The notes below the pieces were generated by a model, which searched no databases, was not told the DNA's origin, and saw only the letters and a program-made list of their open reading frames with translations. From NCBI GenBank assembly GCA_026989015.1, contig JALSKD010000148.1:1-53383 (forward strand): a stretch of DNA of 53,383 bases, given 5' to 3'. Every line of letters begins with the position of its first letter. Positions within the stretch are counted from its first letter, which is position 1. The position numbers were made by a program, and so were the translations under genes. Source of the stretch: Gammaproteobacteria bacterium. GTDB lineage: Bacteria > Pseudomonadota > Gammaproteobacteria > GCA-001735895. Shown here piece after piece: positions 39,771 through 48,367 of the stretch.

Positions 39771-40370
39771 GTGTCGTCCTCGCCGTCACTCGATGCACTG
39801 ATCGATGCGCTGACCTGCCTGCCGGGCGTTGGCCGGAAGTCGGCCCAGCGCATGGCACTCTACCTGATCGAGCGCAACCGCGAGGGCGCGCGGCGGATCT
39901 CCGAGTGCCTCGATACCGCACTGGAACGGGTCGGGCAGTGCGAGCGCTGCCGCAACTTTTCCGATCAGCCGCAATGCAGCATCTGCGCCAGCAGCAAGCG
40001 CAACCAGCGGCTGCTGTGCGTGGTCGAGACCCCGGCCGATGTGCTGGCCATAGAATCCGCCGGCAGCTTCGATGGGCGCTATTTCGTGCTCATGGGCCGG
40101 CTGTCGCCGCTGGACGGCATCGGCCCCGAACAGCTGGGGCTGGACCGTTTGAGCGAACAGCTGGAACAGGAGACGGTCGATGAGATCATTCTCGCCACCA
40201 ACCCGACCATGGAAGGCGAGATTACCGCACGCTACATCGCCGATCTGGCCGCCGCGCGGGGCATTGCCACCAGCCGCATCGCCCACGGCGTTCCACTGGG
40301 GGGCGAGCTGGAGTTTGTTGACAGCGGCACACTGAGCCAGGCCTTCAGCGGCCGCCAGACCTTCAAGTGA
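39771..40370 (+). CDS. recR: Recombination mediator RecR
   Basis: A 199-residue member of the RecFOR pathway that helps load RecA at gaps. It shows the N-terminal helix-hairpin-helix ([20 protein letters not shown]), a four-cysteine zinc finger (C57, C60, C69, C72), and a TOPRIM domain with [29 protein letters not shown] and [17 protein letters not shown]. The C-terminal [20 protein letters not shown] is the family signature. The start is GTG 39771, four bases after the ybaB stop. Confidence 0.96.
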
Positions 40371-40381
40371 GGAGACCTTCG

Positions 40382-40729
40382 ATGACCGATGACACCATCT
40401 TCGACAAGATCATTCGCCGCGAGATACCGTCCGACATCCTCTACGAGGACGACGATGTGCTGGCCTTCAGCGATGTCAATCCGCAGGCCCCGGTTCACTT
40501 TCTGGTGATTCCGAAACAGCGCATCGCCACCCTCAATGACCTGCAGCCGGAGCATGCGGAACTGGTGGGCAAACTGGTGCTGACCGCAAGGCAGCTCGCC
40601 GCCGACAAGGGCCTTGCCGAGGACGGCTATCGGCTGGTGATGAACTGCAACGACCATGGCGGGCAGACCGTGTTCCACATCCATCTGCATGTGTTGGGCG
40701 GTCGTCCCATGGGTTGGCCGCCCGGCTGA
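40382..40729 (+). CDS. hinT: HIT-family nucleotide hydrolase HinT
   Basis: A 115-residue purine nucleoside phosphoramidase. The HIT active site is HIHLHVLGG (H99, H101, H103), preceded by DGYRLVMNCNDHGGQTVF, and the N-terminal part has TIFDKIIRREIPSDILYEDD and HFLVIPKQRI as in HinT. The ATG at 40382 has GGAG 8 bases upstream. It is the last gene of the dnaX-ybaB-recR-hinT run and faces the SET-domain gene tail to tail after 20 bases. Confidence 0.95.
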   Translation: MTDDTIFDKIIRREIPSDILYEDDDVLAFSDVNPQAPVHFLVIPKQRIATLNDLQPEHAELVGKLVLTARQLAADKGLAEDGYRLVMNCNDHGGQTVFHIHLHVLGGRPMGWPPG

Positions 40730-40749: not shown

Positions 40750-41049
40750 TTACCAATCCGCGTTGTAATCGTGGGTGATCTCTTCACCCGGAGCGATGTC
40801 GCGCAGGGCGACCACGCTGAGGTCGTCGTAGTAACAGGCATTGGGGCGGTCGGCATGGTTGATGTACCTGAGGTCGTTCTCCACGCGAAAGCCGGTGCGC
40901 TCGTCCAGCCACAGCACATGCATGCCGTCGGTATCCGTGTACTCGCCCTGCAGCGTACCGATGAGCTCTCCCTTGCGAATGCGCCTGACAGCAAAAAGCC
41001 CCATTCCGTGGATGGGGCTTTTTGCGATCCGGTAGGCCGGTTTCGCCAC
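40750..41049 (-). CDS. Small SET-domain protein (putative lysine methyltransferase)
   Basis: A 99-residue protein that is little more than a SET domain. The N-terminal part SPIHGMGLFAVRRIRKGELIG, the core RYINHADRPNACY (N64, H65) and the C-terminal IAPGEEITHDYNADW with catalytic Tyr95 match the SAM- and lysine-binding parts of SET enzymes. Pre- and post-SET cysteines are absent. Bacterial targets are unknown. It starts at GTG 41049, three bases after the stop of the GDSL lipoprotein gene, without a visible Shine-Dalgarno sequence, so translation probably depends on coupling. A strong hairpin lies inside codons 9-20. Confidence 0.82.
   Translation of the reverse strand: MAKPAYRIAKSPIHGMGLFAVRRIRKGELIGTLQGEYTDTDGMHVLWLDERTGFRVENDLRYINHADRPNACYYDDLSVVALRDIAPGEEITHDYNADW
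40991..41025. terminator. Perfect two-way terminator-like hairpin inside the SET gene
   Basis: GCAAAAAGCCCCAT (40991-41004) and ATGGGGCTTTTTGC (41012-41025) are perfect 14-base arms around a 7-base loop. Read in either direction, a GC-rich inner stem is followed by five T, the form of a bidirectional intrinsic terminator. It lies within the coding region of the SET-domain protein, 24 to 58 bases into the gene. It could end hinT transcripts from the left and attenuate fadL/GDSL transcripts from the right. Confidence 0.65.
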
Positions 41050-41051
41050 CG

Positions 41052-42563
41052 TCAGGACGGCCCGTTGGGATCGAGGAAGATGGTCGGGTACTCCATCGGT
41101 TCGACCCTGGGCAGGGTCGCGCCAAACTGGCTCTCGATGGCATCGATGACCGCATTGGTGATCAGCGCATAGCCGCGCTGGGTCGGGTGGATGCCGTCCA
41201 GCGAGAAGGCACCGCCGCTGCCGAATGTGGCAGTTACCTGTCCGGTGCCGAAGCTGTAGCCGTTGGCGCTGGCGACCTGGCTCATCAGTCCGTTGACATC
41301 CACCAGGGCCAGGTCATCGTCGGCGTCCGCCAGGTTCTTGATGGTGGCGTTGTAGGCGGCGGTGGCGTTGGCGATGGCATCACGCTCCGACTTGACCAGC
41401 ACATCGCCATCTTCCAAAGGCGTACCGACACCCCATGCCGAGTTGGGGTCGTCCTCGTCGGCCAGGGTGCCGATCCTGGAGCCGGCAGTCAGCACCAGCA
41501 GGTCATCGGCCGTGGTCTGGCGGATCGACGGCAGGTTCAATGCGCTGAGGTCGGTCAGGTCCTCGTCCTCGATCACCACCGGGTTCTGCCCGGGGGCAAA
41601 GGAGATGGTGCGGGCGGCCGCCTCGTCGGCATCGATCAGGTTGTTGGCCAGCGCCTGCTGGATGCCACCGTTGTAGGCGGCATAGGCGGCGTTGAGCGCG
41701 TCGGCATTGGCCTGATCCAGCGGCACCGGGTTCCAGGGCACGGTGGTGAAGTAGGGGATGTCGGTGACATCGGGGATCGTGAGCAGCACGCCCTTGCCGC
41801 CGGCGGACTTGAGCGCGGTCAGCAGTTGCTGGTAGGTGGCCGCGAAGACATTCGGATCGGTGATGTCATCGGGACCGTAGGAGGTTGGGTCGATGTTGCC
41901 GGTCTGGTCCTCGCCGTCACCGCCTGAGGTGGCGTAGAAGAGCACATCGTTGTTGCCGATCCACAGCGTGAAGAAACTGGGCTGCTGCGCGACGGCATCG
42001 CCGATCACCGTGGCGGTATCCGAGGACGCGAAGCGCACGAAGTAAGGGTTCGCGGTCCCCGCTTGCACGCCGGCCAGAGCGCCATAGCCGGGCGCGCCCA
42101 GATGGAAGGACTTGGCGCCGGGCACCCCCATGTTGTTGGGCATGTCGTCGACCGGGTTGGCGATGTCAGTGGTGGGGTCGGCGTCGAGGCGCTTCGGTGA
42201 TTGCTTGCCGTTGACCAGCCCCAGTACCAGCCGTGTCTCGGCGATCTTGTTGCCGCCGAGCAGCAGGCCGCCGTTGTTGTCGGCCACCAGCGGCTGACTG
42301 AAGGCGCCGCCGCCGGCCTTGGCCAGGCTGCCGGCCAGCAGAGCCGGGAAGGAGTGTTTTTGGCCGTCGAGATAGAGTGCGCCGTCGGCATAGCCTGCAG
42401 TCAGTGAGTCGCCGACGGCCACATAGGTGCTGAAGTCGGCACTGCCGGGTTTGAAGGTGATGTCCTTGACCGAATCGTCGAATTCGGGGGCACAGGCGGT
42501 CAGGGCCAGGCTGACGGAGCCGGCAATGGCCAGTTTCTTGAAAGGGATAGCTTTTCTGTTCAT
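41052..42563 (-). CDS. GDSL/SGNH-family esterase or lipase, lipoprotein
   Basis: A 503-residue lipoprotein (lipobox LALTAC, C24) with an SGNH hydrolase fold. Catalytic S53 lies in VAVGDSLTAGYADG, the block III Asn in FFTLWIGNNDVLF, and the Asp/His pair D456 and H459 in SLDGIHPTQRGYAL. The middle part has an acidic insertion (residues about 210-400) that is unusual in length for the family. It would hydrolyse esters of lipids at the outer membrane or cell surface. It follows fadL by 9 bases, so released fatty acids could be taken up by FadL. The ATG has GAGG upstream. Confidence 0.88.
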   Translation of the reverse strand: MNRKAIPFKKLAIAGSVSLALTACAPEFDDSVKDITFKPGSADFSTYVAVGDSLTAGYADGALYLDGQKHSFPALLAGSLAKAGGGAFSQPLVADNNGGLLLGGNKIAETRLVLGLVNGKQSPKRLDADPTTDIANPVDDMPNNMGVPGAKSFHLGAPGYGALAGVQAGTANPYFVRFASSDTATVIGDAVAQQPSFFTLWIGNNDVLFYATSGGDGEDQTGNIDPTSYGPDDITDPNVFAATYQQLLTALKSAGGKGVLLTIPDVTDIPYFTTVPWNPVPLDQANADALNAAYAAYNGGIQQALANNLIDADEAAARTISFAPGQNPVVIEDEDLTDLSALNLPSIRQTTADDLLVLTAGSRIGTLADEDDPNSAWGVGTPLEDGDVLVKSERDAIANATAAYNATIKNLADADDDLALVDVNGLMSQVASANGYSFGTGQVTATFGSGGAFSLDGIHPTQRGYALITNAVIDAIESQFGATLPRVEPMEYPTIFLDPNGPS

Positions 42564-42572
42564 GTCGATGCC

Positions 42573-43811
42573 TCAGAAACGGTAGTTGATGCCGAGGCCG
42601 ATGGAAGTGGCCGAGGTTTCGTAACGGCCGCCGAAGGGGCCGTCGTTGTGGTAGTCATAGGAGGCGTTGAATTCGTCGGAGGTGATGTAGAGGAAACTCA
42701 TGTCCACATCCATCTGCGGATTGACCCTGACGCTGGCGCCCAGGGTGTAGCCGGTGGCGTCGTTGCGAGGGGTCTCCGGTGCAAAGTACCCCTCCTGGAT
42801 CGGTGTCTTGTCCACATACACGCCGCCGCGCAGGGTCCAGTCGTCGTTGAGGCGGTGCTGTACGCCGATGCGGTAGATGTCGGAATCTTCCCAGTTGCGC
42901 GGATTGAGGGATTCGCCGGCGCCATTGTGGAACTGGATGTCCAGTGCCTTGTATTCGCCCCAGTAGGTGCGATTGAAGTCGATGGCCAGGGTGGTGTCCT
43001 CGTTGAAGGACCAGCTGATGCCGATGGCCAGTTCCGCCGGCAGGATCAGGTCCGCATCGAACGTGGTGTCGGGATAGACGGTACGCAGCAGGCTGGGGAT
43101 GTTCTCGAAATCGGCCTGCTCGCCGCGGGCCTCAAGGGTGATCTTGGAACGGTAGCCCAGGCCGATGGCGAAGCGGTCGCTGGCCTGAAACATGAGCCCA
43201 AGGTTGTAACCCCAGGCGTTCACATCGCTGGCCTCGACGGTGACATTCGCACGATCGCCGTTCTCATCGACCAGGGAGCTGTTCAGGTTGCGGTTGAAAT
43301 CGACCTTGCCGATGGCGTAGGTGGGGCCGAAGCCGATGCTGAACCGGTCATTGACCTGTACGGCAATCGTCGGCTGGATGTACACCGCCTTCAGTTCGAT
43401 GGTGTTGACCAGGTGCGATCCGGCCCAGTCGGTGGGCCATTCGACCACATTGCCGTAGGGCGTATAGACGCCCAGCCCGACCGCGATGTCGCTGTCCGCC
43501 GGTTTGCTGACATAGTAGAAATTGACCGGCGTGCCGATCGGGCTGTCGGTTTCGGCATAGTAGCTGGTATTGCTGTTCTGAAAGATGGTTTGGCTCTTGA
43601 GCAGCGTGAGACCGCCGGTGATGGTTTCTCCGTCGCCGATTCGGGTGATCGCGCCGGGGTTGAAGAACACCGTTTCCGCGCTGTCGCTCATGGCGGTGGC
43701 CGCGTGACCCATGCCCAGCGCCTGCTGGCCCTGGATGGAGACGCGGTAGCCCCCGGCAAGGGCGCTGGTGGCCATGCACAGGCCGGTCGTCATCAATAGG
43801 AATTTTTTCAT
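42573..43811 (-). CDS. fadL: FadL-family outer-membrane long-chain fatty acid transporter
   Basis: A 412-residue outer-membrane beta-barrel with N-terminal hatch. The signal peptide ends SALAG. FadL features are GYRVSIQGQQALGMGHA, AETVFFNPGAITRIGDGETI (the NPA-like hatch motif, here NPG) and a C-terminal SIGLGINYRF ending in Phe. Strands with VGLGVYTPYGNVVEWPTDW and SIGFGPTYAIGKVDFN match the family. It brings hydrophobic compounds, usually fatty acids, across the outer membrane. The ATG at 43811 starts the signal peptide; a longer frame upstream lacks support. Confidence 0.92.
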   Translation of the reverse strand: MKKFLLMTTGLCMATSALAGGYRVSIQGQQALGMGHAATAMSDSAETVFFNPGAITRIGDGETITGGLTLLKSQTIFQNSNTSYYAETDSPIGTPVNFYYVSKPADSDIAVGLGVYTPYGNVVEWPTDWAGSHLVNTIELKAVYIQPTIAVQVNDRFSIGFGPTYAIGKVDFNRNLNSSLVDENGDRANVTVEASDVNAWGYNLGLMFQASDRFAIGLGYRSKITLEARGEQADFENIPSLLRTVYPDTTFDADLILPAELAIGISWSFNEDTTLAIDFNRTYWGEYKALDIQFHNGAGESLNPRNWEDSDIYRIGVQHRLNDDWTLRGGVYVDKTPIQEGYFAPETPRNDATGYTLGASVRVNPQMDVDMSFLYITSDEFNASYDYHNDGPFGGRYETSATSIGLGINYRF

Positions 43812-48315: not shown

Positions 48316-48330
48316 TCGGAGTCTGATCCC

Positions 48331-48367
48331 GAAGGGCATGCCTCGGCATGCCCTTCGGCTTTTCTTT
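48331..48367 (+). terminator. Terminator or attenuator between aapJ and aapQ
   Basis: GAAGGGCATG (48331-48340) pairs perfectly with CATGCCCTTC (48347-48356) around CCTCGG, followed by GGCTTTTCTTT. It should end most transcripts after aapJ and leave limited read-through into the permease genes. Confidence 0.75.

Follow-up and report, generated by a model that had tools for sequence, protein, structure and literature searches.

Genes at the locus

A small gene for a SET-domain protein lies on the minus strand (40750..41049) of the window, by which is meant the whole 53,383-nucleotide stretch of gammaproteobacterial DNA that was analysed. The gene begins with GTG and encodes 99 amino acids, of which residues 15-96 are spanned by the Pfam SET match (E 1e-14), and the translation carries the GxG, NH..N and EEITxDY motifs of the domain as GMG, INHADRPNA and GEEITHDY. 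Judged by its sequence, the product is methyltransferase-like, and its gene is conserved. Comparison with the gene of a congener (genome G001) gives dN 0.19 and dS 1.29 (dN/dS about 0.15), and the gene is under purifying selection. A spurious open reading frame was rejected on the basis of the Pfam match, this ratio and the family-wide occurrence of homologues.

Upstream on the same strand is a gene for a GDSL lipase/acylhydrolase (41052..42563; identified by Pfam), preceded by a gene for a fadL-type outer-membrane protein (42573..43811; Pfam Toluene_X, 2.4e-64) that would be the upstream member of a fadL-GDSL transcription unit. The GDSL stop codon occupies 41054-41052 and the SET GTG starts at 41049, leaving a gap of 2 nt (41050..41051, minus strand). 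No Shine-Dalgarno motif was found before the GTG, and a promoter scan of 36-46 kb, confined to sigma-70 sites and with a chance expectation of fewer than two, found none. Converging on this unit from the other side is hinT (HIT domain by Pfam; 40367..40729, plus strand). The neighbors are thus those named in the preliminary description, which had hinT arriving from the left and fadL/GDSL from the right; the hinT stop, however, is 261 nt from the hairpin described below, because most of the SET gene intervenes.

The hairpin in the SET codons

At 40991-41025 the DNA forms a perfect 14-bp stem with a 7-nt loop, GCAAAAAGCCCCAT-TCCGTGG-ATGGGGCTTTTTGC, having five A on one side and five T on the other (AAAAAGCCCC...GGGGCTTTTT), with both runs in the lower stem. 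Folding and the Pfam assignment bear out the preliminary description exactly as to the position of this hairpin and its coincidence with codons 9-20 of the SET reading frame (AKSPIHGMGLFA), which on the minus strand read GCA AAA AGC CCC ATC CAC GGA ATG GGG CTT TTT GC(T). Since the SET gene is conserved, the stem bases are truly coding. Folding energies are -32.3 kcal/mol (plus strand) and -29.1 kcal/mol (minus strand), with z-scores of -5.8 and -4.7, respectively, and none of the shuffled sequences folded as well. The hairpin resembles an intrinsic terminator in its G+C-rich stem, short loop, core of six consecutive G-C pairs and, on each strand, a run of five T (then GC) immediately following the stem core. 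It resembles a bidirectional terminator, on either strand, in the symmetry of the stem, with an A-tract before it and a U-tract after. Its placement is also that of a terminator for GDSL: it begins 26-32 nt after the stop codon, depending on the base counted first (26 nt to the stem, 29 nt to AAAAGCCC), and the stem starts 24 nt past the first base of the SET GTG. Because the stem is a palindrome, the antisense frame at 40841-41035 (plus strand) reads AKSPIPWMGLFAIR, nearly identical to AKSPIHGMGLFAVR in the sense frame, which is a coding curiosity only.

A generic terminator scan did not list the hairpin, presumably because the T-run is absorbed into the stem, and a repeat search likewise missed it. 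Rfam gave no match above threshold; the sub-threshold hit was to rli61 (19.6 bits against a gathering score of 50). It is nevertheless the longest perfect hairpin stem in the window, and the stems in order-1 Markov sequences of the window's length reached no more than 11 bp in 20 trials. The only other stem in the window of at least 10 bp, at 48329-48358, lies outside putative genes; there a perfect stem of 13-14 bp is followed by CTTTTCTTTC, a good candidate for an ordinary terminator. Random synonymous encodings of the SET protein under the codon usage of the genome contain a stem of at least 13 bp in about 1 in 1000 draws, so that the SET motif does favor palindromes, yet too little to make a stem expected. 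Five stem codons are among the less common (CTT 6%, GCA 11%, GGG 13%, TTT 18%, AAA 25%) in a codon table drawn from putative window genes chosen by length and GC3.

The core of the hairpin recurs elsewhere in the genome. Pattern searches for AAAAGCCC(N3-24)GGGCTTTT found 9 places, the SET hairpin included, 0 in a reversed control, and 8 in the congener. Elsewhere in this set the distance from the stop codon of the left-hand gene to the start of the hairpin is mostly 22-37 nt, and at four places the far side is bounded, 16-29 nt further on, by the end of a converging gene; the flanking genes are supported by Pfam. Tail scores of the SET hairpin (3.42 and 3.18) fall within the range of this stock of terminators (3.10-4.50), and its core energies (-13.0 and -15.5 kcal/mol) are at the weak end of theirs (-12.8 to -29.9). 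From the shared form, the tail scores and the spacing, the SET hairpin would therefore be the ordinary bidirectional terminator of this genome in an unusual place. One match to the core pattern (contig G000:C120, locus L073) lies within a long open reading frame, has an imperfect stem and is probably due to chance. A repeat element or uptake-type signal was rejected, as the genome has a single copy of the exact hairpin, and the places where the shorter core recurs, mostly intergenic, suit terminators.

The same locus in related genomes

To the extent that the relatives' contigs cover it, the arrangement of fadL-GDSL-SET facing a convergent hinT-recR-ybaB is found, whole or partial, in G001 and in four genomes of another genus of the same family (G037, G035, G039 and G033). 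In three of these four sister-genus genomes (G037, G035 and G039) the GDSL-SET gap is 50-73 nt long, against 2 nt in the window species and 8 nt in G001, and it contains a canonical terminator stem with 6-7 T. Not every sister-genus genome has such an intergenic terminator, since the gap of about 61 nt in G033 has a hairpin without a T-tail. At two sister-genus loci (L003, 2415-2471, and L005, 1060-1111) only 0-3 nt separate the end of the terminator's T-run from the SET ATG, and no Shine-Dalgarno motif was found at the SET start; on these grounds SET seems to be in the shadow of a terminator there too.

The stem in G001, AAGAGCCCCATTC-ACG-GAATGGGGCTCTT, is 13 bp long and again falls within SET codons. 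Between Lys and Phe the two species share six degenerate stem codons, all identical except Lys (AAA>AAG) and Leu (CTT>CTC), whose changed bases pair with each other in the stem; across the gene, 31 of the 70 comparable codons have changed synonymously. In a simple simulation, at least 11 pairs survive a change in at least one stem codon with P about 0.03. The compensation is suggestive and not decisive, because only one pair varies in a comparison of two genomes. The preliminary description had proposed a comparison of synonymous sites in relatives to see whether compensatory change keeps the stem, and to this extent it does so in the congener. Beyond G001 the stem is absent: the hairpin occurs in the SET codons of none of the other relatives examined, and the codon-level stem pattern is missing from the remaining 39 genomes sampled in the order and from 368 others sampled in the class. 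Several family relatives that lack the hairpin nevertheless share SPIHG.GLFA, and a family-wide conserved RNA element was rejected on account of its absence.

The stem core in G001 is at least as stable (-18.9 kcal/mol against -13.0 to -15.5 in the window species), and its U-tract is short, UUU in the GDSL direction and UU in the hinT direction (tail scores 2.53 and 1.73). With so weak a U-tract the G001 hairpin may terminate poorly, and two-way termination by it is not supported by its sequence. The proposal that the same bases serve as protein code and as a two-way terminator accordingly stands in part: SET is a conserved gene and the hairpin of the window species matches the stock terminators in stem type and tail scores, but the U-tracts are not kept in the congener.

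Origin and role of the hairpin

These observations are, we think, probably best explained by relocation of the fadL-GDSL terminator into the SET coding sequence, where its bases would be used twice. The ancestor may have had its terminator in a short GDSL-SET gap, as the sister genus has today. When that gap was nearly lost in the genus of the window species, the SET codons for A-K-S-P-I...M-G-L-F-A would have become stem and U-tract, synonymous choice (GCA AAA AGC CCC ... GGG CTT TTT) building a stem that this amino acid sequence permits, with Lys and Met at variable positions contributing. An RNA polymerase that has transcribed GDSL would meet the hairpin about 30 nt past the stop, the usual spacing, and would mostly stop there. 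In the tested terminators of PMC4824070, termination was maximal at hairpin distances above 27 nt from the stop codon. Translation reduced the efficiency of a terminator placed 30 bp into an ORF by only about 10%, as a ribosome that has just initiated has little chance of reaching the polymerase within the first 100 bp. As the hairpin's geometry is close to this, most fadL-GDSL transcripts should stop at it. SET mRNA would then come, at a low level, from polymerases that read through or from an unrecognised start or promoter. Counted against relocation is that transcripts ending at the hairpin would leave a ribosome started on SET without a stop codon.

The preliminary description held that full SET expression needs anti-termination or ribosome-coupled read-through, which overstates the case: ordinary leakiness is enough, and regulation of SET by anti-termination is not needed. 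More tentatively, motif and terminator may have co-evolved, with SET amino acids (Lys before SPIHG, Met in GMG) as well as codons selected after gap loss, and SET thereby held low and dependent on read-through; we consider this possible, with the balance somewhat against it. On the plus strand the same hairpin could end hinT transcripts. On that strand the stretch from the hinT stop to this hairpin yielded no second hairpin with a T-tail, so that these transcripts could cross most of SET in antisense and end at the SET hairpin. Such a role is plausible from the sequence, and Rho or other routes could also end them.

An unlikely alternative is that the hairpin is a regulatory attenuator, with SET translationally coupled to GDSL and its level set by GDSL translation: a ribosome restarting promptly at the GTG would cover the 5' arm and let the polymerase enter SET, and without such a restart transcription would stop. 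The 2-nt spacing of stop and start, the failure to find a Shine-Dalgarno motif and the start of the stem 24 nt after the first GTG base all suit such a device, and in G037 and G035 as well the SET start lies directly behind the terminator. The loss of only about 10% noted above argues against it, as a new ribosome would rarely catch the polymerase, and no sensing element was seen; neither inspection by eye nor Rfam (none above threshold) revealed a leader peptide, pause site or alternative antiterminator hairpin near SET. Slightly less likely is a chance by-product of coding, a hairpin with no part in termination that arises because SPIHGxGLF can be encoded as a palindrome. The motif does permit AGCCCC/GGGGCT pairing, about 1 in 1000 random synonymous encodings yields a stem of at least 13 bp, and G001 has kept the stem and not a good U-tract; but chance would have had to supply the exact stock terminator form at the right distance past the GDSL stop, from five less common codons, in a genus with no room for an intergenic terminator, together with the paired change in G001, and other family relatives lack the hairpin though several share the motif. 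Least likely, by a small margin, is that the hairpin is kept mainly as RNA structure (for example to protect the 3' end of GDSL mRNA or to limit SET translation) and terminates well only in the window species, which would suit the stable core and poor U-tract of G001 and leaves the A5/T5 runs and stock form in the window species unexplained.

Terminators in coding sequence are mostly predictions and are readily dismissed as false positives. Relocation of the GDSL terminator into SET would produce a hairpin of a known kind, to which the contrast between genera and the paired synonymous change add a useful variant. Bidirectional terminators between convergent genes, with an A-tract and a U-tract (PMC7566282, PMC12207403, PMC1852404), are similar in stem, A5/U5 flanks, use in both orientations and distance from the upstream stop; the SET hairpin, which has the same form as this genome's other terminators, differs in lying inside conserved codons of a third gene and not in a gap, with the second stop codon (that of hinT) 261 nt away. 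Intrinsic terminators in coding regions include tR2 in the ORF of plasmid W48 (PMC4824070) and cases in Zymomonas mobilis (PMC7566282), which it resembles in lying about 30 bp past the start of a downstream ORF and being expected to function despite translation. It differs in being a naturally occurring hairpin with its stem written by a conserved protein motif, matched by a terminator in the gap of the sister genus and by two pairing synonymous changes in a congener. With ribosome-controlled attenuators (pyrBI, PMC4824070; Bacillus bmrC/bmrD, PMC4191407) it shares a translation start closely preceding the hairpin; it lies within the structural gene itself, and a leader peptide, pause site and sensing codons like theirs were not seen.

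The comparison of genera suggests where the terminator formerly stood, and the locus is a compact case in which synonymous changes could pit the coding role of the bases against their terminator role. The case is relevant to the way in which dense genomes maintain the ends of transcripts once gaps vanish, and it is a warning that programs predicting terminators or operons will overlook such ends if they mask coding sequence. In another genus (L008-L010, L012, L015, L016, L018-L021, L023-L028) SET mostly adjoins a divergent fadL-type gene, and a box like TTGCAAAATAATACTCTTAA, perhaps a promoter or operator, is common shortly before the SET start; a search allowing up to 3 mismatches found no such box in the window. 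In two sister-genus genomes the SET-hinT gap (L007, after 1557, and L005, after 1422) is filled by long imperfect inverted repeats, of the CCACGAAGGACACGAAG type and CACAGAAA...TTTCTGTG, which perhaps act as borders between the convergent genes.
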